The translations under genes and the position numbers were made by a program. Shown here piece by piece: positions 41,044 through 60,324 of a stretch of 64,000 nucleotides of DNA. The DNA comes from Loktanella sp. Lineage in GTDB: Bacteria; Pseudomonadota; Alphaproteobacteria; Rhodobacterales; Rhodobacteraceae. The stretch lies in NCBI GenBank assembly GCA_017390475.1, contig JAFPBO010000033.1, forward strand, positions 118,248-182,247, in the 5' to 3' direction. The first letter of the stretch is position 1; the number at the start of each line of letters is the position of its first letter. The notes under the pieces are model-generated. The model was not told the DNA's origin. It saw only the letters and a list, made by a program, of their open reading frames with translations, and made no database searches.

Positions 41044-41052
41044 TTAAAAATG

Positions 41053-44974: not shown

Positions 44975-44984
44975 TATTTATGAG
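44975..44984 (-). promoter_or_regulatory. CTCATAAATA element (late-promoter-like), tail tip gene
   Basis: Minus strand reads CTCATAAATATGAG. This is one of four exact copies of CTCATAAATA. It lies 112 bases from the first ATG of the tip gene but only 31 bases from an in-frame ATT at 44943, which is the spacing seen at the other sites. Confidence 0.6.
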
Positions 44985-44993
44985 TTTGCAGAT

Positions 44994-45554
44994 TTAGACT
45001 TGACCCCACTTGAGGGAAAACTCAGTTGAGCCTTCAAAGATTTGGTCAAAGGCTGTGTCGGTTGGGTCAAATGCTTTCAAGGCATCACGTGTCGTGAACA
45101 ACGTTGACTTAGCATCAAGCGACGACAAAGGTGCTGAACACTCAATATTCAAAGATTGCTCGCCGTCATTTACTTGCTTTTTCGTGTTTGCAACTGTGCC
45201 AGAATAGACGTGATACATGTCGTTCAAACCAGTTTGCGCAGCTCCATCAATGACAAACCCCAACTTGATTTCGACTGGCATGTGAATGATGCCATTTTCA
45301 ACCTCAGCCATCATGACTGGGTCAAGCGCCGAAAGTCTCAGTTTGTATGTTTGCCTATCGACAACTGTTGTTGCTCTTGGCGACTCGAAGTCGATCAGGT
45401 TTCGTTCAGTCACATAGATATTGCCATTCCAAGACAGATCGTATGGCAATGTCGTAAAGAAGTGTGGCTGGTTGAAGCCAAAGAATACTAGGAAGAATAC
45501 ACCCAGATCGTCATTCGCTAGTTTTGCCAGTAGTGCCTCGCTGTTGTTTTTCAT
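44994..45554 (-). CDS. Minor tail protein, DUF2163/gpL-like
   Basis: A 186-residue protein placed between another minor tail gene and the tip gene. It begins LLAKLANDDLGVFFLVFFGFNQ and contains LPYDLSWNGNIYVTERNLIDF, TYKLRLSALDPVMMAEVENG and LNIECSAPLSSLDA. The N-terminal pattern (small domain, wdG-x-Y, then beta strands) resembles DUF2163 / distal-tail-associated proteins of lambda-like phages and gene transfer agents. No cysteine cluster for an iron-sulphur site, as in gpL, is seen. Assignment rests on position and weak similarity. Confidence 0.6.
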   Translation of the reverse strand: MKNNSEALLAKLANDDLGVFFLVFFGFNQPHFFTTLPYDLSWNGNIYVTERNLIDFESPRATTVVDRQTYKLRLSALDPVMMAEVENGIIHMPVEIKLGFVIDGAAQTGLNDMYHVYSGTVANTKKQVNDGEQSLNIECSAPLSSLDAKSTLFTTRDALKAFDPTDTAFDQIFEGSTEFSLKWGQV

Positions 45555-45556
45555 TG

Positions 45557-46150
45557 TTACAGGCTTTCTATTAATTTGATTTGGCCGACATCGCTTAGAA
45601 TGCCGTCGTTAAATTTAATCCCTTGACCGCTTGAAAAATCTAGCTGGTATTTCAAGACTGCATCGTAGCCGATCAAAACGGGGGTTCCATTTGGAACAGC
45701 AGTCACCAGATTGGGAAACAGGCTTATGGCTCGGTTATTGGATACAAAGCTCACTGTTTCTTTGACGGCATAGATTTTCTCGTGATTTCCAAACTTGATG
45801 AAGTATCCAGCAGGAAGGACACCAATTTGGTTAGTTGATGCGATCACACCAAGTGAACCGCCAATCACTGCTCCTGATGTTACAAGATTATTGGACAAGG
45901 TTAGTTTTTTCTTTGGACCAACCAGTTGTGGCATGATCATGGTTTTCTTTTTGAAAAAGTCCCAAGTGTGAGCGCCAAACACGTCACCTTCGTCATCGTT
46001 CATCAGTATGTTGAAGCTAAGCTCCCATCGTTGGGCTTCAGTCAAGAACGTGGATTGCTTGAGGCTCAGTGTCTCCATTTGAAATGCCTGACGGTTGCTC
46101 GTAATGACAAATGGTGTCTGAATGGCTGATCCGTTGTAGTAGTAAGGCAT
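45557..46150 (-). CDS. Minor tail protein (distal tail region)
   Basis: A 197-residue beta-rich protein directly after the tape measure gene (TAATG overlap), where distal-tail or gpM-like proteins are encoded. It begins MPYYYNGSAIQTPFVITSNR and includes FLTEAQRWELSFNILMNDDEGDVFGAHTWDFF, suggesting the N-terminal ring domain of a distal-tail hub. No enzymatic motif. Name based on gene order. Confidence 0.6.
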   Translation of the reverse strand: MPYYYNGSAIQTPFVITSNRQAFQMETLSLKQSTFLTEAQRWELSFNILMNDDEGDVFGAHTWDFFKKKTMIMPQLVGPKKKLTLSNNLVTSGAVIGGSLGVIASTNQIGVLPAGYFIKFGNHEKIYAVKETVSFVSNNRAISLFPNLVTAVPNGTPVLIGYDAVLKYQLDFSSGQGIKFNDGILSDVGQIKLIESL

Positions 46151-48342
46151 TAGCTTCCCCCTCTTTCATGGTTCCAGTTGTTTACGCCTCGGCTAATCTC
46201 AGGAAGCATCTCGAAAATTTGCTTTTTGGTTTGTCTGCTGATGTCGCCAGTGATGTTGATGTTGTTTACAACTTGGCCAGAACCGGAGTTCATGTAGTTG
46301 CCAACTTCACCAACCGGCACGACAAGTTCACCGGGAGTAAGCATTGCAGGAACGCTGTCTCGACCAAGTTTTGAGTATGGCGTGTGAGGTACGATGCCGC
46401 CTGTTGCCATGAACAAGGATGCAAAGCTGCCAAGGAGGCCACCAGAGCCACCGCCCATGCCACCCAAGGCGGAACTCAAACTGGCAGATACTGATTTGCC
46501 GAAGTTTTCAAAGATGTTGTCAAATGTATTACCGAACAGAGCATCCATCAGGCCAGATGCAGTTTGATCAATGAAACCAGAGGTCAGTCTGTCGGCGAGG
46601 CTTAGGCCAAACTCTTTCCAGTCGCCTGTTTTCAAGGCAGTCGAAAATGAGTTTTTCAGATAATCCATGAACTCTGTGCTGACGATTTCAGCAGTATCAA
46701 TTGAAATATCTGTTGCTACTTCCTTGAGTGCTGCTGGCACTCTTGCTCGACCACCGCCACCACCAGTTCCGGTCAGCCCTGCCTCAAGGTCAGCTAGAGC
46801 GTCATCCAGATTTGCCAGTGTAGATGTAAGCTGATCTTCAATGACTGCGGGCGTTGTGTTGAATGGTGCCATAGGCGCAATGCCTGATCCACCATTTCTT
46901 ATCCAACTCGGACGGGAACCTGGGCCTTCATTATCAGCACCAGCGCGACCGATAGAAACAGGCGCGACAGGATCAAACAACGGAATACGATTGAAAGCAC
47001 TAATCATGCTGTTCAGTGCAGATTCGAGCCTTTCAAGGACAAAATTGATGCCTGTGGAAATTGCATCCGTGAACACGAAGGCAGCACTTTTCAGCGCCCA
47101 TTCCATTTGATCCTTGAGGTTATCCCGAAGCAATCTGACAGATATGCCAAAACTGTCGTCAAAGAAGGTGACAACTTCCTGGAAGGCATCTTTCATTTTT
47201 CGACCAAAGCCAGCGAAGTCCAAGGTGAACAGGCTGTAAACACTGCTTAGAAGCGTTGACCAAAATCCAATGACAACTTTGATGAAACCCGCGACAAAGC
47301 TAAGAGCCTGTGTAAGATTTCTACTCAGCCACTCGCTTGCGTTTTGAATCCATTGCGTGAATGTCTCAATCCAGCCTGTCGCCTCTTGAACGGACACATT
47401 GAATGTCGATGACAGGAAGCCTGCGATCTGGCGCATGATGGCATCCCAATTGTTCGACACATAGATGACACCAGCGATGGCACCAGCAATGGCCCCTGCG
47501 ATAGCGATGGGAATTGCCCCGGCAACCGTGAAGGCGACACCAACGGCGACTACGGCTGCTGCAAGGATGCTCAGTCCAGTGACAGCTCGCGCCATGGTTG
47601 GATTACTTGCTGAGAATTGGTTGAAGGCATCCAGACCAGCAGTGACGAATGGGATGATTGTGCCGACAACATTGGTCATTGTTGCCGTCATGTTTTTGTT
47701 CATCAGATTCATGGAGTCATTGAAGGTTGCAGCGGCATCAGCAGCAGCACGATCAATTGTCAAAAGGCCAGCGGCAGCACTGTCCAGCGCAGCAGTGTTT
47801 AGTTGACGGTCAGCAAATTCCGATCCAAGCATTTTGACTGCCAAGGCTGAGCGAACACCTTGATCGGCAATGCCGTCCAGACCATCGACAATGGCACGAA
47901 AACGCTGTTCAGGATTCATTTTCTGAAGGTCTTCAAACGTCAGACCAATCTGTGCAAACTCATTGACAGCAGTAGCAGACCCACGACCAGCAGCAGCCAT
48001 TGCCTTGTTGACTTTGAGCATCGCAGACTGAAGCGACCCAGATGACAAGCCAGCCTGTTGAAGCCCAAAATCCAATTTCTGGAATGACTCAAAGGCAATG
48101 CCAGCACCGTCGGCATTTTTAACCAATGCATCAGCATGGTTTAGCAATGTGGCGACACCAGCAGCGGCAGCGATTGCACCAATCGCTACACTGATCGCAC
48201 GAAATGCCCTCGTGACAGTATCAGCTTGCTTCTTTGCACGACTGGTGAATGTTTTTGTCGTCTTGCCAGCGCGATCCAAATCCTTCTTAAGACCGACACT
48301 GTTTGCACCTAATGCAATATCGAGCGAGGCGATTGTTGCCAT
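46150..48342 (-). CDS. Tail tape measure protein
   Basis: A 730-residue protein that sets tail length and is probably ejected with the DNA. The N-terminus (LDIALGANSVGLKKDLDRAGKTTKTF) and the long helical Ala-rich body are characteristic. Hydrophobic segments lie near residues 48-66 and 255-300 (AAAVVAVGVAFTVAGAIPIAIAGAI). The C-terminal part has the usual short domain with FMATGGIVPHTPYSKLGRDSVPAMLTPGELVVPVGEVGNYM. It is preceded by the gp10-like gene and overlaps the next minor tail gene. Confidence 0.95.
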   Translation of the reverse strand: MATIASLDIALGANSVGLKKDLDRAGKTTKTFTSRAKKQADTVTRAFRAISVAIGAIAAAAGVATLLNHADALVKNADGAGIAFESFQKLDFGLQQAGLSSGSLQSAMLKVNKAMAAAGRGSATAVNEFAQIGLTFEDLQKMNPEQRFRAIVDGLDGIADQGVRSALAVKMLGSEFADRQLNTAALDSAAAGLLTIDRAAADAAATFNDSMNLMNKNMTATMTNVVGTIIPFVTAGLDAFNQFSASNPTMARAVTGLSILAAAVVAVGVAFTVAGAIPIAIAGAIAGAIAGVIYVSNNWDAIMRQIAGFLSSTFNVSVQEATGWIETFTQWIQNASEWLSRNLTQALSFVAGFIKVVIGFWSTLLSSVYSLFTLDFAGFGRKMKDAFQEVVTFFDDSFGISVRLLRDNLKDQMEWALKSAAFVFTDAISTGINFVLERLESALNSMISAFNRIPLFDPVAPVSIGRAGADNEGPGSRPSWIRNGGSGIAPMAPFNTTPAVIEDQLTSTLANLDDALADLEAGLTGTGGGGGRARVPAALKEVATDISIDTAEIVSTEFMDYLKNSFSTALKTGDWKEFGLSLADRLTSGFIDQTASGLMDALFGNTFDNIFENFGKSVSASLSSALGGMGGGSGGLLGSFASLFMATGGIVPHTPYSKLGRDSVPAMLTPGELVVPVGEVGNYMNSGSGQVVNNINITGDISRQTKKQIFEMLPEISRGVNNWNHERGGS

Positions 48343-48345
48343 GAG

Positions 48346-48819
48346 TTACCCCTTATTCTTTTTCTTGTTTAGGGCTTTTGCTTTTTTCAAAATTGCAGGG
48401 CCTAAAGTGCCTGCAAAATCCTTGATCATCTGATCACGGTGAAGGTCAAAAGCATTGCGCAACGTTGAAGAGCCAGAGACCTTCGTGTTTCCAAACTCCA
48501 TTGCGAGTGCTTGATTCCAAAGTGATCTCTTAGAACTCCAAGTCCAACCAACACGAGCAGCAATAATCATGTCGCTATGAAAATGATCTGATCGCAACAT
48601 TGCGCGATTGGGCTTGCCAATTCTTGCTCTAGTTGAGTTTGCAAGTGAGCCAAAATCTTGGGGAGTATTTGCAGCAATAGTTGCTTCAATGGGACGAACT
48701 GCTGCGCGAACTGCCGGTCGCATTGCTTGCACACCCGCTTTGGGTCCAAATTCGTCTGATAATTCCAAGAGGGCCTTTTCGAGTTCTCTAAAGCCCTTCA
48801 CTTCCATTCTTACATCCAT
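48346..48819 (-). CDS. HK97 gp10-like phage protein
   Basis: A 157-residue basic protein beginning MDVRMEVKGFRELEKALLEL, then AMRPAVRAAVRPIEATIAANTPQDFGSLANSTRARIG, which is the classic start of HK97-gp10/head-tail family proteins. The C-terminus (AFDLHRDQMIKDFAGTLGPAILKKAKALNKKK) is lysine-rich. In most phages this gene lies between the head-tail adaptor and tail terminator; here it sits between the chaperones and tape measure. A start at 48807 is also possible. Confidence 0.8.
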   Translation of the reverse strand: MDVRMEVKGFRELEKALLELSDEFGPKAGVQAMRPAVRAAVRPIEATIAANTPQDFGSLANSTRARIGKPNRAMLRSDHFHSDMIIAARVGWTWSSKRSLWNQALAMEFGNTKVSGSSTLRNAFDLHRDQMIKDFAGTLGPAILKKAKALNKKKNKG

Positions 48820-48855
48820 GCGGCTGCTGTGTGATCCTGTTCCGTTGCTTTGCTT

Positions 48856-48865
48856 TATTTAGGCA
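48856..48865 (-). promoter_or_regulatory. TAAATA element (weak late-promoter-like copy)
   Basis: Minus strand reads TGCCTAAATAAAGC, 36 bases upstream of the gp10-like start and overlapping the end of the chaperone T frame at 48866. It keeps TAAATA but not CTCA, so it is the least certain copy. Confidence 0.35.
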
Positions 48866-49587
48866 TCAAGCAATTTCTCTTTTGAGCCACACAGGCACAT
48901 CACCGCCCAAAGCCAGAACCGCCTTGGTCGCCATGCTTTGAGTTTTGCGGATTTTTCTTATCGCTGAACCAGTGCCAAGCGTCTGAGCATCTTCAATTTC
49001 GTCAAACAACTCGTGGTAACTAGTGAATGGAGTTGGCTTAAACTTCTTGCCTAGTGCTGTCGCTCGCAAGATTTCAGCAATCTCATTCTGTTTGACCAGA
49101 TTGTAGTATGTTTGCTGGTAGTCAGCATATGGTCCCCAAAGACCAATGCGGAGTGCTGAGTAAAGGTGCCGATAGTCATCGATGCCAAGGTCGTTGACAG
49201 TATCTAGGGACGCGCCATTCGCTAACAGCAGCGTCCTAGTTTGTGTGATCCAGCAGGTTTTTACTTTTTTTCGGAAGCAGTCCCCGGCACAAGAGCGTCT
49301 TTAATTGCTTCCGCAAACAGATTGAACTCATCAAGGCTTAGTTTCTCTATGTCCTCATATGTCTTGAACTCATCAAACGGCTCACCATTCTCATCACAAG
49401 CCAAGCCAAATAGCTGAGATGTCAGTTTCTCCGAAAGTTCAGAGTCTAGCAGGTCATCCTCCGTCAGGCTTGAATGCGCTCGAACGATTTCCTTGGACTC
49501 TGCTATCGTCAATGATCGAATGTAAAAACCTTCAATGCTAGTTTCGATGACTGGTGTCTTTTCCTTAAATTTTCTAATGCTTGCCAT
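48866..49587 (-). CDS. Tail assembly chaperone GT, made by programmed -1 frameshift
   Basis: The G frame (49261-49587) ends GAA AAA AAG TAA. In the -1 frame the ribosome continues GTA AAA ACC TGC and on through 132 codons to a stop at 48866, with no in-frame ATG at its beginning. The extension (NGASLDTVNDLGIDDYRHLY, then SALRIGLWGPYADYQQTYYN, ending DVPVWLKREIA) reads as real protein. Together they give a fusion of about 240 residues. G plus GT, placed before the tape measure gene and fused by -1 slippage, is the conserved lambda-type arrangement for chaperones that coat the tape measure. Confidence 0.85.
49261..49587 (-). CDS. Tail assembly chaperone G
   Basis: A 108-residue acidic protein, MASIRKFKEKTPVIETSIEGF followed by YIRSLTIAESKEIVRAHSSLTEDDLLD and FNLFAEAIKDALVPG. 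Size, acidity and place between tail tube and tape measure fit the G chaperone of lambda-like tails. Its last codons are the slippery heptamer, so most ribosomes would end here and a minority would make GT. Confidence 0.8.
   Translation of the reverse strand: MASIRKFKEKTPVIETSIEGFYIRSLTIAESKEIVRAHSSLTEDDLLDSELSEKLTSQLFGLACDENGEPFDEFKTYEDIEKLSLDEFNLFAEAIKDALVPGTASEKK
49264..49270 (-). promoter_or_regulatory. Slippery heptamer A AAA AAG for -1 frameshifting
   Basis: The minus strand carries A-AAA-AAG in the correct phase, immediately before the UAA stop of G. This is the most shift-prone heptamer known in bacteria (as in dnaX). An inverted repeat downstream (CTAGGGACGC at 49204-49213 against GCGTCCTAG at 49231-49239, one bulged base, 17-base loop) begins about 24 bases after the site; it is further than usual for a stimulator. 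Confidence 0.8.
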
Positions 49588-49620
49588 TTTTATTCCATCC
49601 CTTTTCTGTTGTTGTTCTGC

Positions 49621-49857
49621 TTATTGGCGTTCCCATGAATGCGGCTTCATTGCTCTCATGTAGAATGTGTCGATAAAATTCTTTGCTGTTTCGATTGCGA
49701 CATTGACATCTTCCCCCGCAACTACAAGGTCACGAGCAAGTTCGAATGCTAATATTTTCTGATTTGGATACGAGTACCAGAATTCATCTGGTGCTTCAGT
49801 TTTACCGTACTGGCTTTTCGAAATCATGTCTAATAATTGCTCTTCAGCAATGCTCAT
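49621..49857 (-). CDS. Small phage protein upstream of tail chaperones
   Basis: A 78-residue soluble protein (MSIAEEQLLDMISKSQYGKT, then QKILAFELARDLVVAGEDVNVAIETAKNFID). It has a good ribosome binding site (GAAGGAGAAG) and a CATAAATA element 31 bases upstream. It has no recognisable domain. By position it may be a tail or chaperone accessory protein. Confidence 0.65.
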   Translation of the reverse strand: MSIAEEQLLDMISKSQYGKTEAPDEFWYSYPNQKILAFELARDLVVAGEDVNVAIETAKNFIDTFYMRAMKPHSWERQ

Positions 49858-49888
49858 AGCTTCTCCTTCGGTTTTGTTCTGTTCCCCT

Positions 49889-49898
49889 TATTTATGCT
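49889..49898 (-). promoter_or_regulatory. GCATAAATA element (late-promoter-like)
   Basis: Minus strand reads AGCATAAATAAGGGGAACAG, 31 bases before the start of the 78-residue gene. It shares both CATAAATA and a following GGAACAGAAC with the copy before terS. Confidence 0.55.
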
Positions 49899-49951
49899 TT
49901 TCTGAGTTTACTGAATGCTAAGACCGTCACAGTTGGTTCAAGGCACATCGT

Positions 49952-50020
49952 TCAAATAATGTTGGCTATGATCACCAGTACCAGCCATACGAGCAGCATC
50001 AGCTTTGTTTGGCGTGACAT
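49952..50020 (-). CDS. 22-residue single-membrane-span peptide, possible lysis partner
   Basis: A short frame starts one base after the stop of the holin-like gene, with AGGA five bases before its ATG. It encodes MSRQTKLM followed by an almost wholly hydrophobic stretch (LLVWLVLVIIANII) and stops. Positive N-terminus plus a single span fits a tiny membrane peptide such as an antiholin or small spanin part. Too short for homology; it could be chance, but ribosome binding site and coupling favour expression. Confidence 0.45.
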   Translation of the reverse strand: MSRQTKLMLLVWLVLVIIANII

Positions 50021-50021
50021 G

Positions 50022-50357
50022 TCAATCCTGCTGGTCATTCTTATCTCGCCCATCTTTGTTGACGAGATATTTGATCCAGTCCTTGAGCCACTCCTTATCG
50101 GCGCTCATTTCGACAATGATTTTCATGATGTTTTCGGCTGATAGGGCAACGATGATGGCGACAGGCACAGACCAGCTTTCTGACAGTCCCAGTAGGTCAA
50201 CAATCTGTTCGTAGAGAATGACGCCCGTCAGCAATGCGACAATTACCGTTGATGCCGCGCCGAAAAATGTGAGTGTGCTGCTAGTTTGAAGTCTAATGAT
50301 GACAGCAACGAACGAAGCCAGCCAGATTTCGAGGGGATATCCCAAAAACAATGTCAA
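50022..50357 (-). CDS. Holin-like membrane protein
   Basis: A 111-residue protein with three hydrophobic stretches (LEIWLASFVAVIIRL near 9-22, LTFFGAASTVIVALLTGVILY near 29-49, and VPVAIIVALSAENIMKIIV near 64-82), followed by a charged C-terminal tail (DWIKYLVNKDGRDKNDQQD). Small size, multiple spans and polar tail match phage holins, which form the lesion that triggers lysis. No endolysin adjoins, so the call is by architecture only. Confidence 0.55.
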   Translation of the reverse strand: MTLFLGYPLEIWLASFVAVIIRLQTSSTLTFFGAASTVIVALLTGVILYEQIVDLLGLSESWSVPVAIIVALSAENIMKIIVEMSADKEWLKDWIKYLVNKDGRDKNDQQD

Positions 50358-50378
50358 AGTTCCTTATTCCTATGGGGG

Positions 50379-50388
50379 TATTTATCGG
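50379..50388 (-). promoter_or_regulatory. CGATAAATA element (late-promoter-like)
   Basis: Minus strand reads CCGATAAATACCCCC, 21 bases upstream of the holin-like start and just after the stop of the tail fibre gene. It keeps ATAAATA of the shared element. Confidence 0.45.
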
Positions 50389-50405
50389 AATTAGGATTTC
50401 AGTGC

Positions 50406-52544
50406 TTAGAAGGTGCTCCAGTCAACCAAGGTTATGATCTTGATCGTGCCACTAACATTGATCTTCATCATCACATCACCAGCATCGCCAGACGCGGTTC
50501 CATCACTTACCCATGTGACACTATGTCCTGAAGCAGGGTTAGCTGGATCAGCACTTAATGGTCGTTGAGTGATTGCACCTGCTACGTCTAGTGGTGTGGC
50601 AGGTGTATTGGTTCCGATACCAAGACGCTTTCCACTATCCATCCATGTTACTGGTCCTGCTGGATCAAGCTTCAGACGGGTATTGTTTGCACCATAGTCG
50701 TCGGTGCTAATAATGAAGTCAGTGTCGTTGTGAAATAGGGTTCCATTTGTAAAGTTGCCATCACTATGCTGAAACGTCATGTGTCTGCTTGTAGACCCAA
50801 TTAGCACATTAGGTGAGACGATAGCCAGTTCATCAGTGCTAGTCAAAAATCCCCGTGTTCCTGTGTTAAACAAACCAAGCTTGCCACCTGCTGCACTTAA
50901 ATCTCCGAAAACGCCTAAGTCACCAGTAACAGTTAGATCGTTATTATCGCTGATAGTTACACCGGTATCTTTGATTATCTTTCCAGTCTCTCCATCAAAT
51001 CTTGGTACGCTATCGTTTACAACAAAACTTACGGAACTGGTAACTGCGCTTGGATCAATAGTTCTACCAGCGTCATTTTGTGCGCGATAGTTTACAGCCT
51101 GTGAAACCGGCAAGACATTTGCACCGACTGTGTTGAGATAGTCAATAAACTCTTCAAATAATGCTATAGGGTACTCAGTTTCCCTTGTTGGAACAGGAAC
51201 GACAGCATGGAACACAACGTTGATCCAGTCGCCAGTTGCCATAGCACTATCGACTATCGTCTTCAGAACTTCGACATCCGTTGTAGCACTGACAGTAAAT
51301 GCGTTAAGTTCTGTTGGCTTGATGTAGGTGATGGGTTGAATTAGACCATTTATCGTTCTTGCACTGCTAAAGTATTTCTGAACTGAATTTTTAACTGCAT
51401 CATTGTGGCCACCGTTAGGATATGAATAGTGATCTGAGCCACGGTAGCCATGAAGTTTTAGCCATGCTTGGCTTGCTGCAAGATCGGCCTCTCGACCAGC
51501 CTCATCTAAGGTTGCTAAGTTAAACTGCCCATGTCCTGAGACATCCCACCCGTCTAGATGCATACGGTCAGTCTGTGCTTGCGTCATGAAGCCACCAACA
51601 CCTAGTAGATCGTGGATAGCGTACATGCTTCCCTTGTAGCTGTATCTATCCATGATTGGCTTCGCCACTGTGTACGCACTTTCGTTTGAGTCATCAAAAT
51701 TGATTGAAACAACACCGCGATTGGCGACGCCTTGCTTAGGAAAGCCAAGACCAGCGACGTAAGTGGTCGGTTGCGCATCAGCAAAGTTAACTTGCCGAAT
51801 AATGATACGGTTAACGGTAGACCAGCTAGGCGTGCCTTCAGAGTTAAATCCCCCCCGTGGAACTACAGCTTCAATCCACTCACCGTTTCTTGGTGCGATG
51901 TTAGTCAAAAACTGCTTGAGGTTGACAATATAGAATGAACTAAATCCGTCGGAGGTATCCACAAGTACGTCAACACTTTGTACTTCGTTCCAATTTGAAC
52001 ATTTCACCCAAAGTCGTAAATGCTTGTCACTGAGATCAAGTGACTGACTTTTTGTGACACCAACAAGCTGTGATAATGCCGAACTAGGTATTAGAGATAT
52101 GGATGTGCTACCTTCAATCGGATCAGTGGTATCTGCCAGATTTACGGTTCCTGCTGCATACCAATCTGACCAATCCGATAAATTGTCATATGTCGCGAAC
52201 GGTTCTCTTCGGTAAATCTGTCTGGTAAGTGGAGCCTGAATGCCAACGTCACCTTGTGGACCCTGTTGGCCTTGCACACCTTGTGGACCAACTTCACCAG
52301 TATCGCCTTTGGGCCCTCTTGAACCAGTAAAACCTATTGGGCCTTGAATGCCTTGCTCACCGGCAGGTCCAACGTCACCAGTTTCGCCTTGAATGCCTTG
52401 TGGACCAGTGAAACCAATAGGACCTTCTGGACCTACTTCACCTTGTGGACCTGGTTCACCTTGTACGAAACCGATCCCGATAGATTTCTGTGAATCAATG
52501 CTAATCTTTGATATACTCTTTTTTACTTTGACCTGAATAACCAT
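50406..52544 (-). CDS. Tail fibre with collagen-like repeats and polysaccharide-deacetylase domain
   Basis: A 712-residue protein with three parts. Residues about 29-103 are 24 or so Gly-X-Y triplets ([19 protein letters not shown] and on), forming a collagen-like stalk. Residues about 277-480 resemble a NodB carbohydrate esterase: [14 protein letters not shown] with paired Asp284-Asp285, [23 protein letters not shown] and [11 protein letters not shown]. The second metal His motif looks reduced, so activity is not assured. The C-terminal 200 residues look like a trimeric fibre with a KLDPAG-type knob. It probably binds or trims surface polysaccharide during adsorption. Confidence 0.85.
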
Positions 52545-53463: not shown

Positions 53464-53496
53464 TAAAAATCTCCTTAAGATTATTATTGTTTTTGG

Positions 53497-53506: not shown

Positions 53507-53526
53507 ATTTTTGTTTTCGGACATTT

Positions 53527-53898
53527 TCAGTTGATGATGTTGAAAACGAAAGTCGTCCGATGAACTTCTTCGAGTGCATCATCAAAGCCGTCAAAGATGT
53601 TTGCTATTTCAATCATGCTGACGTTGGTTTCGCGCAAGTCACCCGTGAAACCATGAAACTTGTTCATGATTTGTTTCTTAAGCAATTGTACATCGTCGTA
53701 GCTTTTTGAGAAAAGCGTGATTGTGACTTCAGTTTGCTTCAGGCCAAATGAGTCAACGTAGAACAATGTTCTCATGCCATTTCGAACAGAGTAAACTATC
53801 GCGGGAAACTTGTAGTATTTGCCAAGTGCCGGACGGATTGTCGCGTTTGGAACAGTTTCTTTCAGTTCTGCTACAAAATCTTTGATCAACTGGCTCAT
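53527..53898 (-). CDS. Tail terminator-like protein
   Basis: A 123-residue protein (MSQLIKDFVAELKETVPNAT, then KFPAIVYSVRNGMRTLFYVDSFGLKQTEVTITLFSKSYDDVQLLKKQIMNKFHGF, ending RTTFVFNIIN). The helix-strand pattern matches DUF3168/gpU-type tail terminators that cap the tube. Overlaps the adaptor gene by 4 bases; followed by tail tube. Assignment by size, pattern and order. Confidence 0.7.
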   Translation of the reverse strand: MSQLIKDFVAELKETVPNATIRPALGKYYKFPAIVYSVRNGMRTLFYVDSFGLKQTEVTITLFSKSYDDVQLLKKQIMNKFHGFTGDLRETNVSMIEIANIFDGFDDALEEVHRTTFVFNIIN

Positions 53899-54230
53899 TC
53901 GGTTGCCTCCAGTGCATCGACTAGAAACAGCAATTCGCCACGGTTGGTCAGTTTTGGATCAATCCCCAAGACTTCGTAGGTTTTCGTTGATGGACCAGCA
54001 AAGCGTACTTGATCACCAACTTTGACCGACAATGTGCGGGGATTTTTGCGGACATAGACATACTGGCGTTCACCATCCAAACTCAGCCCGCCTTGTAGGG
54101 CGTCCTTGTAATTCATGGTGGCTGCACGAGCGCCTGTGCTGAAGGCTACCACAGGAGTCTTGATGACCTCACCATAGTGGTTCTCTGTGATTGTCACTGC
54201 ATAGAAGTCAGCCTTGAGTGGGTACTGCAT
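53895..54230 (-). CDS. Head-tail adaptor (head closure) protein
   Basis: A 111-residue beta-barrel protein of the SPP1 gp16 / Phage_H_T_join type: YPLKADFYAVTITENHYGEVIKTPVV, then ARAATMNYKDAL, YVYVRKNPRTLSVKVGDQVRFAG and TYEVLGIDPKLTNRGELLFLVDALE. It plugs the connector and joins head to tail. One-base overlap with the gp6-like gene upstream. Confidence 0.78.
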   Translation of the reverse strand: MQYPLKADFYAVTITENHYGEVIKTPVVAFSTGARAATMNYKDALQGGLSLDGERQYVYVRKNPRTLSVKVGDQVRFAGPSTKTYEVLGIDPKLTNRGELLFLVDALEATE

Positions 54231-54778
54231 CAGACCTCAACTCTCTTGTCGGTCATCAACAGGCGGCCAATAGTGATCTGGGCGACCCTTGCTTGTGCGT
54301 CAGTTGACTCGCTGCGAACTTCAAACAGTTCGGCTGCTGTCATGAGAATTGCATGGCGGACAACCGGTGGAACGAAGTCCATGCCAGTCGAGTATCGAAT
54401 GGTGACGGGATGTTTGTAGAGTTTTGACAGCGCTGGCTTCTGGCTAAATGTCAGGCGCGCTTCGTCATCCGTGGGGTCAATCGAGTACCCGGCAGCATCT
54501 AAGACCTGAAGTTCATCAGATGCGTCATAATATCGAACGGTGATGTTATTGGGATTCTTGTGATCCAGAGTAACATCACCAAAATTAGGGAAGTTTTTCC
54601 CGACTTGAATGGGGGAAATGTGACGACCGATATGGTTGCTTACGTATTCAGTTGCGGTCAGTAGTAGGGAGCCAAGTTCAGCGTCATAACTGTCATCATT
54701 CCAAAGCATCAGGTGGCGCTTCAGGTGCTGCACCGATACTGGCGCACTAGATACTGGTTGTAGAATCTTGAAAGTCAT
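54230..54778 (-). CDS. Head-tail connector protein, gp6-like
   Basis: A 182-residue mostly helical protein. MTFKILQPVSSAPVSVQHLKRHLMLWNDDSYDAELGSLLLTATEYVSNHIGRHI is the usual N-terminus of HK97 gp6-type connectors, and VRHAILMTAAELFEVRSES the conserved C-terminal helix. It forms the ring below the portal. Separated from the capsid gene by a 101-base hairpin-rich gap. Confidence 0.85.
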   Translation of the reverse strand: MTFKILQPVSSAPVSVQHLKRHLMLWNDDSYDAELGSLLLTATEYVSNHIGRHISPIQVGKNFPNFGDVTLDHKNPNNITVRYYDASDELQVLDAAGYSIDPTDDEARLTFSQKPALSKLYKHPVTIRYSTGMDFVPPVVRHAILMTAAELFEVRSESTDAQARVAQITIGRLLMTDKRVEV

Positions 54779-54816
54779 GGAGAACCCTTATTGTTTTTGT
54801 TTTTGGAGGGTTTGAA

Positions 54817-54881
54817 AGAGGAAGGGCGGAGAGAACCCTTCCTCTTCAATTCAGCTATTATTGTTTTTATTTTGCTGAATT
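54817..54881 (-). terminator. Two hairpins after the capsid gene, probable partial terminator
   Basis: AATTCAGC (54848-54855) pairs with GCTGAATT (54874-54881, including the capsid stop). AGAGGAAGGG (54817-54826) pairs with CCCTTCCTCT (54836-54845) around a 9-base loop. On the minus strand the second stem is followed by TTTCAAACC. A leaky terminator here would lower connector expression relative to capsid; RNA-end protection is an alternative. Confidence 0.5.
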
Positions 54882-55995
54882 AAGCTGCTTTAACAGTCAG
54901 AGTTTTGACTGCAGGCGCATGCCATTGTGCTGCACCGCTACGCAGAGAAGCATGGTAGGTGTAGTAACCTGGTTTTGTCTGTTCATAGCGACCAACAGTT
55001 GCAGAAGCGCGGTTTGCAATCACGAGGCCCTTCTTGAAGTCGCCGTATGCAGCAACAACATTTCCACCATCTATTCCAGCCATGTAAGCATTTTCATAGA
55101 TTGGCTGACCGAACAGACGGAATGCACCGATTTGAGCATCAAAGATAAGATCACCACCAGTAGAAGCCGTGTTCAAAGTTCTCAGGGTCTTCATTACGTC
55201 AGTTGAAACAACGAAGGCACCATTTGCACGGTATTGCGGAGCAACCGCAAAGTGCAGGTCAGCAAGGTCATCAAAGCCAACGGCATCAACACCAGCAGTT
55301 TCTACACCTTCAATAGCTTCAACAGCAGTGACATGTGCAGCGGCTTCAATTGCAGCCACTTCATCCAGCATGTCTTGTGCCCAGAAGTTGTCAAAGCCGA
55401 TGATGTCAGAAGCAGCTTCGATAGTGACGTTAGAAAGCGCCTCAATTGTTTTCACCATGACAGTGACTTCAGCCACACCAGCGTTGCCGTTTGCAGTTGT
55501 GTTCTTGTTACCAGCACTTGCTTCAGCAGCACCGTATGCACCAGTACGAACAGGCAGGACCAGAGCCTTGCTTGATGTTTCGATTGTAGATGCCAGAGCG
55601 CGGAAAGGGTTAGCAGCAAACATAGAACCTGTAAGGCCAAATGTATCTGTTGGTGCGCCAACCACGTTCTGAGTAGTAGTGATGTTCTTGATCAGAATGT
55701 CTGCTTCAGCTTTTCCGCCTTCAGCAAGCGCCTTTTCAAATACTTGGTTTATGTTCATGTTTTGTTCTACCTTTTTTGTAATGACAGCAGGGGATGGGAT
55801 TGCGTCTAGTTTCGCCTCAAGCGCCTCTAGAGCGGTTTTCAGTTCAGCAACGTCATCGGAAGTGGCTTTGTTTTCCATTGCCTTTTCGATTGCTTTTTCG
55901 ACATCAGCAGCAAGTGCAGTGCCTTTAAATTTCTCATCAACAGCGCTCTTGATTTCCTCTAGCGCAGCATTTATTTCTGTGTTTAATTCAGTCAT
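54880..55995 (-). CDS. Major capsid protein, HK97 fold
   Basis: A 371-residue protein starting at 55995 (AAAGGAA upstream; the longer frame to 56034 is unlikely). The N-terminal 95 residues are a charged coiled-coil delta domain (EEIKSAVDEKFKG, DDVAELKTALEALEAKLD), the built-in scaffold removed by the protease. The shell domain follows: FGLTGSMFAANPFRALASTI, ANGNAGVAEVTVMVKTIEALSNVTIEAASD, LRTLNTASTGGDLIFDAQIGAFRLFGQPIYENAYMAG. The tail KPGYYTYHASLRSGAAQWHAPAVKTL is typical. Confidence 0.95.
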   Translation of the reverse strand: MTELNTEINAALEEIKSAVDEKFKGTALAADVEKAIEKAMENKATSDDVAELKTALEALEAKLDAIPSPAVITKKVEQNMNINQVFEKALAEGGKAEADILIKNITTTQNVVGAPTDTFGLTGSMFAANPFRALASTIETSSKALVLPVRTGAYGAAEASAGNKNTTANGNAGVAEVTVMVKTIEALSNVTIEAASDIIGFDNFWAQDMLDEVAAIEAAAHVTAVEAIEGVETAGVDAVGFDDLADLHFAVAPQYRANGAFVVSTDVMKTLRTLNTASTGGDLIFDAQIGAFRLFGQPIYENAYMAGIDGGNVVAAYGDFKKGLVIANRASATVGRYEQTKPGYYTYHASLRSGAAQWHAPAVKTLTVKAA

Positions 55996-56005
55996 GGAAG
56001 TTCCT

Positions 56006-56644
56006 TTACAGTTTGAATTGTTTGAGAGCGGCAACTAGTTCCTCAGTCCCAGCTTGTTCATCTCTAAGATTTTTCAGTCCCTTCCAGCCGTGCTGAAAGA
56101 GTGCTTCAATTTCATTTCGGGTTAATCCAGCCTGCTTCAGGACAGACTTGAGTGCCTTAGTTTCAATGAATCCGTCATCGGATTTTACACTAATAACGAC
56201 TGCGCTTTTGTTGGCTGGGTTTAGAACGATGGATGTTTCGACCAATTCTAGCTGGTGAAACTTACGCCCGCCTTTTGGCAGGATTTCATAATCGTTTGAT
56301 CGGAAACCTATTGAAACAGCAGCGACAGCCTTACGTCTTAGAAGCGCTTGAATGTCTTTGCCGAGAGTTGTTTCGGTGTATAGGATTCCTGTTCCCTTGA
56401 CGCCGTGGTCATCTATTTCGAGAGTCTTCCACTCACCGACGATTGACGAAGTGTCATGGTTAAAGAGCATTGGTAGTTTTGCAGAGTCAGGATCGAAAGA
56501 ATTTACAAACTCGTCCAGTGCGCCAGTTTCTATGATGTCACCAACCTGATCCACGTTTTTAAATGTGGTTAGATAAGCAACTACTTCACCATCGGCGCTT
56601 TCCGCTGCCTTCAGGTCAAATTCCTTTATGATCAAATTACTCAT
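56006..56644 (-). CDS. Prohead maturation protease
   Basis: A 212-residue serine protease of the HK97 gp4 family (caseinolytic U35). Active-site region: LPMLFNHDTSSIVGEWK supplies the His and RKAVAAVSIGFRSNDYE the Ser. VVAYLTTFKNVDQVGDIIETGALDEF is the conserved N-terminal block and LELVETSIVLNPANKSAVV the C-terminal one. ATG at 56644 has GAGGTTC. It cleaves the capsid delta domain and is encoded just upstream of it, as usual. Confidence 0.93.
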   Translation of the reverse strand: MSNLIIKEFDLKAAESADGEVVAYLTTFKNVDQVGDIIETGALDEFVNSFDPDSAKLPMLFNHDTSSIVGEWKTLEIDDHGVKGTGILYTETTLGKDIQALLRRKAVAAVSIGFRSNDYEILPKGGRKFHQLELVETSIVLNPANKSAVVISVKSDDGFIETKALKSVLKQAGLTRNEIEALFQHGWKGLKNLRDEQAGTEELVAALKQFKL

Positions 56645-56670
56645 TTGAACCTCATTCTTGTTGTTTGCTT

Positions 56671-56682
56671 TATTTATATGAG
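56671..56682 (-). promoter_or_regulatory. CTCATATAAATA element (late-promoter-like), protease gene
   Basis: The minus strand reads CTCATATAAATAAAGC: the shared element with a 2-base insertion, which creates an exact T4-style TATAAATA. It lies 26 bases upstream of the protease start. Confidence 0.55.
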
Positions 56683-56690
56683 TCGAGTTT

Positions 56691-56873
56691 TCACTCGTTC
56701 CGGGCTTCAAAGGTCCAGCCACGGAGTTCCAGTTCTGATCTTGAAAGACCAAGCTGGCCGATCAGAGGTTCGAGTTTTGGAAGGGAGTAAATGTGACCGT
56801 GAGGATGTTTGACGATCCAGCAAATTACTCTTTTGGGAATGTTTTTGGAGATGGTTGGCTTCTTACTTCTCAT
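56691..56873 (-). CDS. 60-residue phage protein between portal and protease
   Basis: A small basic protein (MRSKKPTISKNIPKRVICWI, then VKHPHGHIYSLPKLEPLIGQLGLSRSELELRGW). It overlaps the portal stop by 11 bases and has AAAGG at good spacing, so it is probably translated. I see no known domain; the second half looks like a small helix-turn-helix-like fold (LPKLEPLIGQLGLSRSELEL), but this is weak. Confidence 0.55.
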   Translation of the reverse strand: MRSKKPTISKNIPKRVICWIVKHPHGHIYSLPKLEPLIGQLGLSRSELELRGWTFEARNE

Positions 56874-58044
56874 CTGTCGGACCTTTCACCTCTTTGGGTT
56901 TCAGTTCCGAAGATTCAGCATAGCCAATGAGGTCGCGGCCTTCGTTGATCGTTAGAAGGCCAGCACCGACCGCTTCAACTGCTACCTTCGTTGCTGTTTG
57001 CATGTCGCCTTTGACAATTTCACTTGAGTCAAATTCAATTTCGAGTGACAGATCATCGAGCAGACCTTCACTCATTTTTTGCTGAATGTTCTTTGTCAGC
57101 GGAGCAATCGAGTCACGGTAAAAACCAGACTGTCTTTGGCTCAAGTTGTCGTACTTAGAACCATCAGCAATCTCGATTGCATATGCAGGCACACGGAAGA
57201 TTGCCGCGATGCGGGTCATGGTCTGGGTTTTGAGCGCCATCATGTCGGCATCGGCAGGTGATTGGCTTTCGACCTGAGTGAATGTCGCGCCGCCATCAAG
57301 GACAGCTATTGACCCTCTTGAGGACCCTGCCCCGCCAAACTTCTCTACCCAGCCTTGCGCAAAGGCTTTCTTCACTTCGGGTGGTAGATCACCAGGATAG
57401 CTAACGACCCCTGAGATAGCAGTACCGTTGCGGAAATAGTCAGCCAGAGTGTTATCAATGGCATTGTCGATTGCGACTAGGTTGGCGCACTGTTTGACCT
57501 TTGACAGGCCATCAATACTTGCACCAATGAAGTCTCGAATGTGGATGATGCGTTCGTCGGGATACAGTGTCCCGTCCTCGTGGCGATAAGAACGCTTGCC
57601 ACTTGCTGACAGAACTGGTGTCATTTGGTCAGCACGAAGCGGGATCAACTCAATGACTTTGCCGGATGATGTTATGACTTTGAGAATGTAGCAGTTGCCG
57701 TATGTCAGCAGGTCAACGACAATGGCGTGTTTGAACTCATACTGACCCATTGCCTTGTTCGGGCGGTTCAGCAGTGCTTGTAGAGAATGATCTGTGATTG
57801 GGTTGAAGCCAACGGCGTCATGTTGCGAGACACCCCAAGGAAGTTGGGCAATAGTCTGTGCAAGAAAACTGACACAAGCAAAGACGGTGGGGTTTTGAAG
57901 TGCGCTTTCAGGAGTAATTGTTTCCCCTGTTCGTGAACTTTTACCGCCGACATATTGAAGCGCGATCGTTCTGTTATTACTAATGCCATCAGTTTTACTT
58001 GGAGATATCCAATTGAACCATGAATTTTGTTTGTTTGATGACAA
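56863..58044 (-). CDS. Portal protein, HK97 family
   Basis: A 393-residue protein forming the dodecameric DNA gate. Family markers: ENP-like SALQNPTVFACVSFLAQTIAQLPWGV, HSLQALLNRPNKAMGQYEFKHAIVVDLLTYGNCYILKV, HIRDFIGASIDGLSKVKQC, GWVEKFGGAGSSRGSIAVLDGGATFTQVESQSPADADMMALKTQTMTRIAAIFRVPA in pattern, and SIAPLTKNIQQKMSEGLL. Length is typical. Own CTCATAAATA element upstream. Confidence 0.95.
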   Translation of the reverse strand: MSSNKQNSWFNWISPSKTDGISNNRTIALQYVGGKSSRTGETITPESALQNPTVFACVSFLAQTIAQLPWGVSQHDAVGFNPITDHSLQALLNRPNKAMGQYEFKHAIVVDLLTYGNCYILKVITSSGKVIELIPLRADQMTPVLSASGKRSYRHEDGTLYPDERIIHIRDFIGASIDGLSKVKQCANLVAIDNAIDNTLADYFRNGTAISGVVSYPGDLPPEVKKAFAQGWVEKFGGAGSSRGSIAVLDGGATFTQVESQSPADADMMALKTQTMTRIAAIFRVPAYAIEIADGSKYDNLSQRQSGFYRDSIAPLTKNIQQKMSEGLLDDLSLEIEFDSSEIVKGDMQTATKVAVEAVGAGLLTINEGRDLIGYAESSELKPKEVKGPTDEK

Positions 58045-58075
58045 GTTGCTAATCCTTATTAGATTCCATTTCTTT

Positions 58076-58085
58076 TATTTATGAG
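58076..58085 (-). promoter_or_regulatory. CTCATAAATA element (late-promoter-like), portal gene
   Basis: Exact CTCATAAATA on the minus strand followed by AAAG, in the 58-base gap between terL and portal, 31 bases before the portal ATG. Confidence 0.6.
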
Positions 58086-58102
58086 AAATGGAAACTGCGG
58101 GA

Positions 58103-59773
58103 TCAGCCGAAGTAAAAATTGAATTCCTTTTTATTTTGAAGCGGGCCGTGGCTTGTTGCACGGCCAATTGCCATGATCATTGCAATGATGGCGTCAATCT
58201 TTAAAGCAGCATCAGCGCCCTTGCGGACCTTGATGTTTTCATTTGCATCAATGTAGATTTCACAGTTTGACAACTGCCATGCTAAGAATGGATCGCCATA
58301 GTGCTTAAGAGTGCCATTCCTTATCAATAGTTCAGTCTCCTTTGATGCAGGAGACATTGCTGATATGGATTGCGGGAACCTGACCATCGTTAGACCAGAT
58401 TCTTGCAGGAGTGCCGTGATTTGGGATGCGTTCCAGTTATCAAATGCGACTTCACGAAGGTCATAGTCAGCATTCAACTGTTCAATGTGCTGTCGGATCA
58501 CGGTATGATCGGCAACTTCACCTTCAGTTATGATTAACTTGCCGTAATCAACTGCCCGATTGTAAATCTGGCGGACGTGTTTCGGGACATTTTTAAATGC
58601 TTCTTCAGGAATGAAGCACGTTGCATCGAAAAAGAATTCGCCATCCTCTGCCCACACTTGGGATACTGCGGTAAGGTCACTAGTCGAGCCAAGGTCCAGC
58701 CCGACATACATCGGCAGGCTTGTTTTGAGTTCAGCAATGCCGTTCTTGTTCCACCTATCGACCTCAATCCATGACGCGCTGGTGCTGATGAACTCGTTCA
58801 GATACTTCGTGCGGAAGTTGGCGCGGGCGGCGGGTATTTCCTCAGCCTTTTTGCATTCCTCAAGCAAGAACTCCCTGCTGACAGACACACCCATGTTCGG
58901 GTTCGCCTTTGCCCAGTTTTCGGGATCAGCCCAATCGTCATCGTCATCAATCTGGTAGGCCAAGGTGAAAATTCGTTCGTCTTCAATGATGCCATCAAGC
59001 ACCTTTTTGGCGTAGTCGAGTTGATCATAGAAATAGTTGGACTGTGCGCCTGATTGTCCGGTCGTGATCATGACAGTCTGCGGGGATTTCTGGGCGCCCA
59101 TCGAACTGGTGATCACGTCGAATAGATCTTGGTTGTTGATCGCGGCAGCCTCATCAACAATCGCCATGCGGATGCTCAGTCCATCTAGTCGCTTGCTTTC
59201 CTTGGACAGAGGCGAATAACGGGACCACTTGTCGCTGTTTGACAGGACGTTTGTTATCTTGTTGATGCCCTTTGTCAGGCGCGGGTCACTGACCTGCATC
59301 ATTCGGGCGCTCATGTTCCAGACAAGCTTTGCCTGTTCCCTCATTGTCGCCAGCGTGACGATTTGAGAACCTTCAGGTGCATACATCAGCTCATAGAGTG
59401 CCAATGCCCCCAGCAAGGTAGACTTGCCGTTCTTACGCCCGACGAGAACGATGGCACTTGTGTATCTACGGATTTCGGGATCGGTTTTATCAACCCAGCC
59501 ATACAGTGAGGCCAGGACGAAGCCTTGCCACGGCTCAAGGACGATGTGTTGACCTGCTACCGTGCCTTCAACGAAGCTGAGTAGTTGGACATAGGCTAAG
59601 ACATGGGCGGCATGTTTATGACTGAAGGTCCAACGAAACGCTTCCGAGCCTTGGTCAACATCGAGGTTTCGGGTGAAGTTTTTGCATTGTTGGCGGACAT
59701 AGAAACTGGCCTTGATCTTGCCTTCCACTACGTCCCGCGCATAACCGATCGCGGAGTCCACGCCGACAGTCAT
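58103..59773 (-). CDS. terL: Terminase large subunit
   Basis: The 556-residue packaging motor ATPase and nuclease. Walker A is VGRKNGKST (residues 111-119) and Walker B is RMAIVDEAAA (Asp207-Glu208), with a coupling motif in MITTGQSG. The RNase H-like nuclease starts at YVGLDLGSTSDLTAV (Asp360, Asp366) and ends with DAIIAMIMAIG. This is the phage terminase family used by HK97-like phages. The ATG overlaps the terS stop by 4 bases (ATGA). Confidence 0.96.
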   Translation of the reverse strand: MTVGVDSAIGYARDVVEGKIKASFYVRQQCKNFTRNLDVDQGSEAFRWTFSHKHAAHVLAYVQLLSFVEGTVAGQHIVLEPWQGFVLASLYGWVDKTDPEIRRYTSAIVLVGRKNGKSTLLGALALYELMYAPEGSQIVTLATMREQAKLVWNMSARMMQVSDPRLTKGINKITNVLSNSDKWSRYSPLSKESKRLDGLSIRMAIVDEAAAINNQDLFDVITSSMGAQKSPQTVMITTGQSGAQSNYFYDQLDYAKKVLDGIIEDERIFTLAYQIDDDDDWADPENWAKANPNMGVSVSREFLLEECKKAEEIPAARANFRTKYLNEFISTSASWIEVDRWNKNGIAELKTSLPMYVGLDLGSTSDLTAVSQVWAEDGEFFFDATCFIPEEAFKNVPKHVRQIYNRAVDYGKLIITEGEVADHTVIRQHIEQLNADYDLREVAFDNWNASQITALLQESGLTMVRFPQSISAMSPASKETELLIRNGTLKHYGDPFLAWQLSNCEIYIDANENIKVRKGADAALKIDAIIAMIMAIGRATSHGPLQNKKEFNFYFG

Positions 59774-60264
59774 TTGCTGACCGTTTTCATGTTCAGGAAG
59801 TCGGCAACGGGATCAGCTTCGACCTGCTTGGTCTTGTCTAGGTTCACCGTGCGAGAACTTGGCAGCAGCCTAAACTCACCCATGATGATCCGCACTTCCC
59901 TTGACGCTTCAAGTGCAAGATTGAATGCCAGCTTCTTGCCTATCATCGCTTCAGGATCAGACTTGTAGTAAGCCAAGGCCGTGACATACATTGCCTGTGC
60001 TTCGACAAGTTGGCTTAACAGGATTGAATCGACTTCCTGAGTCATGCCTTGCTCGTGAAGAACATCAGCAAAGTACTCAAAAATTTCTTTGCGGTTGATT
60101 ACTGGATTGATTTCCAGAAGGTGCTGTTGTGGTTCAACACGCACACGATTCTTTTCAGGCACCAAAACATTTGCATGTCGGTCTGCCCGATATGATCCTT
60201 CAAGTTGGTGCTGTTCAATTGATTTCTTATTACCGCCGCCACTGCGACCTTTTACTCCCGGCAT
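59770..60264 (-). CDS. terS: Terminase small subunit, P27 type
   Basis: A 164-residue protein starting MPGVKGRSGGGNKKSIEQHQLEG at 60264, with GGAGTGAG upstream; the open frame to 60348 is not needed. The middle has FEYFADVLHEQGMTQEVDSILLSQLVEAQAMYVTALAYY, typical of the P27 family that recognises the packaging site. It pairs with terL and lies back to back with an HNH nuclease gene, an arrangement common in phages with cohesive ends. Confidence 0.85.
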   Translation of the reverse strand: MPGVKGRSGGGNKKSIEQHQLEGSYRADRHANVLVPEKNRVRVEPQQHLLEINPVINRKEIFEYFADVLHEQGMTQEVDSILLSQLVEAQAMYVTALAYYKSDPEAMIGKKLAFNLALEASREVRIIMGEFRLLPSSRTVNLDKTKQVEADPVADFLNMKTVSK

Positions 60265-60292
60265 TCTCACTCCATTCCGTTCTGTTCCTAAA

Positions 60293-60302
60293 TATTTATG
60301 AG
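60293..60302 (-). promoter_or_regulatory. CTCATAAATA element (late-promoter-like), terminase genes
   Basis: Exact CTCATAAATA on the minus strand followed by TTTAGGAACAGAAC, 28 bases upstream of terS. It lies in the short divergent gap with the HNH gene. Confidence 0.6.
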
Positions 60303-60324
60303 AAACAGGAACTGGGGAGATTGA

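Follow-up and report, generated by a model that had tools for sequence, protein, structure and literature searches.

We analysed a 64,000-nucleotide stretch of DNA from Loktanella sp. (contig JAFPBO010000033.1, positions 118,248 to 182,247 of the forward strand), here called the window. Its right-hand part carries an integrated element with the virion genes of an HK97-type siphovirus. On the minus strand of this element, a short AT-rich box built around TAAATA recurs eight times:

60293..60302, minus strand: box CTCATAAATA, 28 nt before the terminase small subunit start at 60264
58076..58085, minus strand: box CTCATAAATA, 31 nt before the portal start (TTG, 58044)
56671..56682, minus strand: box CTCATATAAATA, 26 nt before the head maturation protease start at 56644
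53497..53506, minus strand: box CTCATAAATA, 33 nt before the major tail protein start at 53463
50379..50388, minus strand: box CCGATAAATA, 21 nt before the start (TTG, 50357) of a 111-aa protein
49889..49898, minus strand: box AGCATAAATA, 31 nt before the start of a 78-aa protein at 49857
48856..48865, minus strand: box TGCCTAAATA, 36 nt before the start of a tail-completion/neck protein at 48819
44975..44984, minus strand: box CTCATAAATA, 112 nt before the first ATG (44862) of the J-like tail gene, whose true start is uncertain

A sequence-only reading of the window had described these eight elements as lying in intergenic gaps before eight structural genes, seven of them 21–36 bases from a start codon. 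All eight are present at the coordinates it gave and all lie in gaps, with the seven spacings as described. The description of the downstream genes as structural needs a correction for two of the eight: the 111-aa and 78-aa proteins have no PHROGs family match. The boxes at 50379, 49889 and 48856 are variants with two or three base differences from CTCATAAATA. The core heptamer is ATAAATA in seven boxes and CTAAATA in one, which places them within the T4-superfamily box NATAAATA/TATAAATA. By our own reading, separate putative Shine-Dalgarno sequences accompany the seven boxes close to start codons. Genes of the structural block that have no box mostly overlap the preceding gene or follow close behind it, and box-free gaps of some length are found before the starts at 54,778 (101 nt), 52,921 (74 nt) and 49,587 (33 nt).

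The main virion genes and other features of the element are as follows (values in brackets are those of the PHROGs or Pfam match):

59770..60264, minus strand: terminase small subunit (PHROGs 1e-8)
58103..59773, minus strand: terminase large subunit, TerL (PHROGs 3e-141); overlaps the small subunit gene, has no box of its own and is 57% identical to each of two aligned relatives
56863..58044, minus strand: portal protein (PHROGs 1e-84)
56006..56644, minus strand: head maturation protease (PHROGs 8e-39)
54880..55995, minus strand: major head protein (PHROGs 2e-23)
52996..53463, minus strand: major tail protein (PHROGs 1e-12)
46150..48342, minus strand: tape measure protein (PHROGs 2e-21)
41608..44862, minus strand: J-like central tail fibre protein (PHROGs 7e-33)
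60325..60669, plus strand: HNH endonuclease adjoining the terminase genes (Pfam HNH 1e-9)
62461..62799, minus strand: H-NS-like protein (Pfam Histone_HNS 4e-7), with matches in the related elements of Pseudorhodobacter turbinis, Tritonibacter and locus L053
63871..63952, minus strand: four copies of the repeat GTCCGSGACTTAC with 23-bp spacing, near the contig end
38877..38971, plus strand: 5′ part of the host gene comM, cut by the element; the 3′ part lies on contig C54 from base 6402
38972..64000: the portion of the element in the window, which continues on contig C54, bases 1–6401

PHROGs families found in the window comprise the terminase subunits, portal, protease, major head protein, adaptor, tail terminator, major tail protein, tape measure, distal tail protein and J-like fibre. 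The predicted virion genes are those of a complete-looking HK97-type siphovirus, in agreement with the long-tailed HK97-type prophage of the sequence-only reading. The window ends where its contig (C21) ends, and the remainder of the element was located on contig C54 of the same assembly, where the integrase was found through the serine integrase of a related element (51% identity). Because the 5′ part of comM ends at window position 38,971 and the 3′ part begins at C54 position 6,402, the element comprises both contig parts plus the gap between them: 25,029 + 6,401 bp (31.4 kb) and an unseen stretch, about 31–32 kb together. Joined together, the comM flanks from the two contigs give an uninterrupted reading frame of 504 codons, and the portion on C54 matches the solved ComM structure at 2e-108. 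When integrated, the element has its serine integrase at one end and its virion genes at the other. The C54 end also contains an HNH_3 endonuclease, small genes and three ATAAATA (TATAAATA) boxes before genes. One of 45 scanned proteins matched NUMOD3, by our own reading the one on C54. A gene transfer agent, which is a domesticated element without an integrase or att sites of its own, does not fit the serine integrase and the clean insertion in comM.

A repeat, GTCCGGGACTTAC, is found with 23-bp spacing near both contig ends, in opposite orientation across the gap, with two copies at C54 73–108 (L083). These repeats possibly mark an origin or packaging region. By our own reading, about a kilobase of non-coding sequence rich in repeats occupies a similar place in P. 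turbinis (15.2–16.25 kb of its locus L040).

The boxes are confined to the gaps of the structural block (60,340 to 41,608; 18,732 nt). TAAATA occurs there eight times on the sense strand, always inside the 15 gaps, which total 1,052 nt or 5.6% of the block, while the antisense strand holds one further copy. When hexamers were ranked, TAAATA was present in 8 of the 15 gaps and no other hexamer reached as many. The 10-mer CTCATAAATA has four copies in the 4.13-Mb assembly, all within the element, and its reversed pattern has one. The equal frequency in genes and host DNA that the sequence-only reading had named as speaking against a promoter is not what is found. With one mismatch allowed, the 10-mer gives four matches in the whole window, which is unremarkable, as 11 of 100 shuffles reach four. 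A reversed-motif control was flawed because ATAAATA reads identically backwards, and shuffles, raw counts and gap positions were used instead.

Next, we compared the element to its relatives. A portal search identified elements in P. turbinis (NZ_CP039965, 58% identity) and Tritonibacter mobilis (NZ_CP015231, 44%), and a search with a TerL alignment identified four IMG/VR loci, L052–L055, with TerL 57–58% identical. Two of them, L052 and L054, are the P. turbinis and Tritonibacter elements over again and were left out of the lineage count; the other two, L053 and L055, are partial and close to Tritonibacter. Judged by composition and its serine integrase, the P. turbinis element runs from ~9.37 kb of L040 to ~0.25 kb past the end of that locus. 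The Tritonibacter element begins with a serine integrase at L042:21,511 and extends into L041. Other searches gave little: TerL alone found one viral contig (28%) and terminases up to 35% identical in genomes of the genus and family; the TerL alignment found one genome contig (30%); the major head protein found no relatives among viral contigs, nor the portal among genome contigs; and a portal search of 394 family genomes at E 1e-60 matched only the genome of the window.

The box positions are conserved among these elements. Counterparts precede the homologous genes for 8/8 boxes in P. turbinis and 6/8 in Tritonibacter, where none is listed for the 111-aa and 78-aa genes. Ungapped flanks of the window/P. 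turbinis pairs are identical at a mean of 18 of 40 nt, versus 14 for mismatched pairs. The wider motif search proposed in the sequence-only reading thus found boxes on C54 and in both named relatives, with further ones before HNH, GIY-YIG, endolysin and small genes on both strands of the element and its relatives. The integrases of the three elements have no box within 200 nt upstream. Intergenic box counts exceed those of all 200 shuffles in the window part, P. turbinis, L053 and L055; in the main Tritonibacter part the count equals the highest shuffle, and neither C54 nor the upstream part of Tritonibacter rises above the shuffles. The L053–L055 loci (12–21 kb) hold 9–23 TAAATA each, whereas another TerL clade, L056–L064 (~35% identity, GC content 0.48–0.56, higher than in L053–L055), has 0–4 per locus of 4.5–12.3 kb. 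A near-match, CTCATAAAAC, lies at window 52980–52990 before the gene at 52544–52921, and P. turbinis has a full box in a similar place (L040 25009).

We then compared the boxes to late promoters of the T4 superfamily. The passages of PMC2984593 that describe them give NATAAATA for cyanophage S-PM2 and TATAAATA for T4. The T4-like Sinorhizobium phage phiM12 carries CTAAATA 35, 30, 38, 48 and 25 nt before gp23, gp22, gp19, gp18 and the endolysin gene, and has it on both strands between gp48 and gp4, at 35 nt from either start. Of 80 gp23 loci in T4-like contigs, four lacked NTAAATA within 140 nt under the filters used; the other 76 gave 68 distinct sites (eight were duplicates), 62 of them ATAAATA.

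To describe the geometry around the box, 36 sites were picked by hand: 11 from the window genome, including the eight window boxes, 13 from P. turbinis and 12 from Tritonibacter. This set leaves out the P. turbinis terminase small subunit site (17703), sites inside genes and others. At index +11 from the first T of TAAATA, A is found in 31/36 sites (local A frequency 0.44; P 2e-7 before any correction for the number of columns scanned). This position would be +1, the predicted start, if the box sits at the T4 distance. Sets built by rule gave a +1 A in 5/6 sites of the window genome, 10/15 of P. turbinis, 9/9 of Tritonibacter, 11/13 of L053 and 9/10 of L055. In T4-like records the corresponding counts are 8/17 (phiM12), 10/17 (RHph_I1_18), 19/25 (Melnitz) and 5/11 (Syn9). 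With coding sequence excluded from the gp23 contigs, a +1 A is not distinctive there (54%, versus 51% for a TTTATA control).

A second conserved A lies at index −15, or −26 from the inferred start, in 28/36 hand-picked sites (10/11 in the window genome, 12/13 in P. turbinis, 6/12 in Tritonibacter). In the rule-based sets it is present in 6/6 and 13/15 sites of the first two, and in only 4/9 of Tritonibacter, 6/13 of L053 and 5/10 of L055. The window boxes all have it (8/8), with AAA from there in six and GAA ending at −25 in four. Before gp23 of the T4-like contigs, a −26 A is found at 59/68 sites, by our own reading partly within the coding sequence of the upstream gene; with coding sequence excluded (127 sites), only a weak AT-rich patch is seen around −26. 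No conserved −35 hexamer was found in the 36 pooled sites and the box is TAAATA, which rules out a sigma70 promoter (TTGACA/TATAAT with a 16–18 bp spacer). The statement that no −35 box is shared is thus right for the hexamer and incomplete, in that it misses the −26 A.

The likeness to T4-superfamily late promoters consists of an AT box identical in sequence, followed by A-rich DNA, a conserved A where a T4-type start would lie and a position before virion operons. The T4 parallel drawn in the sequence-only reading has held up, through the shared box, the similar box before phiM12 late genes, the +1 A and the conserved positions in three related elements. By its anatomy, we consider the case for the boxes being late promoters strong. 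One difference is that they are found here on an integrated HK97-type siphovirus element in which no gp55 or gp33 was recognised.

The parallel had implied a dedicated sigma factor of the phage's own, to be sought beyond 64 kb. No gp55-like gene was found in the element on either contig, in the host genome or in the relatives. The gp55 family, phrog_234, gave no match in the Tritonibacter record, L053 or L055 (positive control phiM12, 9e-57), only a match at 0.09 some 285 kb outside the element in the P. turbinis record, and none in the window host genome, where the controls were also silent. Nor did phiM12 gp55 and gp33 match any of 1,484 element reading frames at E 10. An element-borne gp55 was thus rejected as far as the profile and these comparisons reach. 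No polymerase, helicase, initiator or repressor family was found among the genes scanned, a result from which diverged homologues could have escaped, as could several small genes that had no match or lay outside the scans. Replication genes were likewise not recognised among the scanned genes of the window element, its contig gap being unseen, and neither replication nor repressor/immunity modules among those of the two named relatives, P. turbinis and Tritonibacter, for which the records are complete. Since none of these genes was recognised, the reading factor is probably supplied from outside. Beyond the virion block, the genes common to the three lineages are the integrase, the HNH endonuclease and the H-NS-like protein (window 62461–62799, L040 16811–17149, L042 24272–24604), the last being the only candidate regulator recognised as common to all three.

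The accessory nucleases connect the elements to T4-like phages. The SegE-like nuclease of the elements has its nearest matches in phiN3, phiM12, RHph_I1_18, Melnitz and cyanophages (best 20 of 544 records), matching phiM12 at 1e-45 to 6e-26, and an HNH endonuclease of the window genome matches one of phiM12 at 3.5e-15. On IMG/VR contig 3300021957_000047, a SegE relative occurs together with a gp23 that is 69% identical to the phiM12 protein. Independently of the boxes, this sharing suggests contact with T4-like phages.

Several other genes were noted. Two adjoining frames at window 48866–49587, with an A7 run before the first stop, occupy the position of the tail assembly chaperone and likely represent a programmed frameshift. 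Window 50406–52544 reads, by eye and not by search, as a tail fibre with collagen-like repeats followed by a polysaccharide deacetylase-like sequence. A 423-aa protein between the HNH and H-NS-like genes (60737–62008, plus strand) has no family match and no counterpart in the other elements, and is probable cargo. Near the element end, a 258-aa plus-strand frame (40267–41043), which lay outside the family scans, matched nothing among phage records or solved structures. A protein with a SIR2-like domain, possibly from a defence gene, is encoded at the end of the Tritonibacter element (L041 20088–21788, minus strand). The Loktanella genome also has a second terminase large subunit gene (contig C42, 168776–170476, L013), 28% identical to that of the element and with no TAAATA in its 4.7-kb locus.

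We propose, as the reading that we somewhat favour, that the boxes are T4-type late promoters read by a sigma factor that acts in trans and most probably comes from a T4-like helper phage. The box [AC]TAAATA would sit at about −12/−6, with transcription starting at an A about one helical turn downstream and, in two of the three lineages, an extra conserved A near −26 that is often part of GAAA. Such promoters would drive the operons for the HK97-type siphovirus virion and the accessory nuclease genes. The reading factor would arrive when a T4-like phage infects the lysogen, and the helper's RNA polymerase, with gp55, gp33 and the clamp, would read satellite and helper late promoters alike. The helper's replication would copy the satellite, which would package itself by its own terminase into its own particles. 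More tentatively, the element may be a bacterial counterpart of virophages: an integrated satellite with its own siphovirus genes, silent until a T4-like infection turns on its late genes through the helper gp55-type sigma, and replicated by that helper. This way of life would be followed by at least three lineages, of which two have named Rhodobacterales hosts, with the box variants CATAAATA, GC/GTATAAATA and CTAAATA tuned to different helpers.

The rival that deserves most attention, though we think it unlikely, is an autonomous temperate phage whose boxes are read by an unrecognised factor of the element, either a diverged sigma or the H-NS-like protein acting as an activator or counter-silencer with host RNA polymerase, and which is replicated by host proteins and the repeat-rich region. 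The H-NS-like protein is indeed common to the elements, the −26 A could mark an activator site, the 23-bp-spaced repeats by the contig ends could be an origin, and the Methylophilaceae phage P19250A was isolated free despite few annotated replication genes. Against it, T4-like phages use the same kind of box, nothing similar to gp55 or gp33 and no repressor or immunity gene was recognised, and no sigma-sized protein of unassigned family is common to the three lineages. The same lack of replication and repressor genes among those scanned would fit a fossil or cargo, descended from a phage with T4-type late transcription that lost its early region and inherited boxes of little present use; one member sits in host comM and two on large plasmid records. 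This is improbable, since three lineages keep the integrase, open virion operons and boxes in homologous places while the flanks have diverged to ~45% identity, which points to continuing selection.

Boxes acting in RNA, as parts of leader hairpins or of a ribosome-binding or processing signal, are more improbable still. Inverted-repeat arms of 5–10 bp surround 6/8 window boxes (sum P 0.007), and those around the portal box form a perfect inverted repeat of 10 bp (window 58066–58095). Read-through RNA would fold at the arm-flanked boxes; RNA begun at the box would not. No enrichment of such arms is seen on C54 (P 0.92), in P. turbinis (P 0.29) or in Tritonibacter (P 0.21), and window 37–64 kb has no Rfam match; on these grounds a leader structure was rejected. 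The spacing of seven boxes from start codons with separate Shine-Dalgarno-like sequences, and the similar boxes before T4-like late genes, also speak against it. Chance recurrence in AT-rich DNA could account for the one-mismatch count over the whole window. Its probability is negligible given the positional conservation, the confinement to gaps and the intergenic counts beyond the shuffles.

Other observations weigh against T4-type late promoters read in trans. The phiM12 genome has 26 CTAAATA versus nine of the reversed pattern and some lie away from late genes; given that ratio, not all of them are of the late-promoter kind. The passages of PMC2988020 on T4 late promoters describe an AT-rich stretch downstream and no upstream element, so the −26 A shared by two lineages here is a difference from T4. 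The inverted repeats suggest an extra RNA role at the window boxes. The literature search found no T4-like roseobacter phage, no T4-like phage of these hosts was identified, and in the relevant part of PMC10783043 alphaproteobacterial T4-like phages are named only for Sinorhizobium/Rhizobium, Pelagibacter and Caulobacter; a survey of Rhodobacteraceae prophages (PMC8224337) contains neither "satellite" nor "late promoter". The absence of a sigma or initiator gene rests on recognisable similarity among chosen genes, so that a diverged one would escape, and there are faint hints of replication functions: a "DNA primase" match (phrog_17952, 0.043) at window 62871–63221, for which no solved structure matched, a NinG/Rap-type nuclease (phrog_171, 6e-5) among the 45 proteins, and Toprim_C_rpt at 0.003, below the cut-off, for the tail-chaperone frame. 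The annotation of P19250A, the cultivated TerL relative, has few replication genes and no polymerase; since this free phage also lists none, missing replication genes do not prove dependence.

Among known systems, the element most resembles satellite viruses. An ordinary temperate HK97-type siphovirus has virion genes and an integrase, as here, together with repressor/immunity and replication modules, of which none was recognised. P19250A (KX815270) shares a TerL 36% identical and a similar virion gene order, and differs in its lack of the box pattern (TAAATA within 80 nt of 2/26 starts, versus 7/20 in the window), its larger genome and its isolation as a free phage. Capsid-forming phage-inducible chromosomal islands are integrated and helper-dependent, a dependence that the element may share, and lack most or all virion genes, whereas the element has head, tail and terminase genes. 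The same contrast applies to the P4, PLE and PICMI satellites, which are integrated, helper-dependent and without most or all virion genes. Virophages of giant viruses have their own capsid genes and late promoters matching those of the helper; they are eukaryotic and their proteins are unrelated. The closest known kind is the satellite viruses Mulch and Flayer, which, in the sections of PMC10690885 that deal with them, have encapsidation genes and lack key replication genes. The element has the former, and none of the latter was recognised among its scanned genes. Mulch further resembles it in having an integrase and an Lsr2-like (H-NS-like) protein. These satellites differ in their Streptomyces hosts, cluster BE siphophage helpers and tyrosine integrase, as opposed to the serine integrase and putative T4-type late promoters here, and the word "promoter" is absent from the text of that paper.

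Neither the promoter type nor satellite viruses are new, and their combination was not seen in a literature search of open-licence papers. T4-type late transcription is not known outside the T4-superfamily phages, which carry the genes for its factors themselves, and a coupling to a helper's late stage made solely by promoter sequence is not known except from the virophages of giant viruses. If the proposal is correct, the satellite would couple its virion programme in just this way to its helper, and helper-dependent satellites could be found by promoter type instead of by their genes. The boxes would also offer a handle for finding the T4-like phages of roseobacters.

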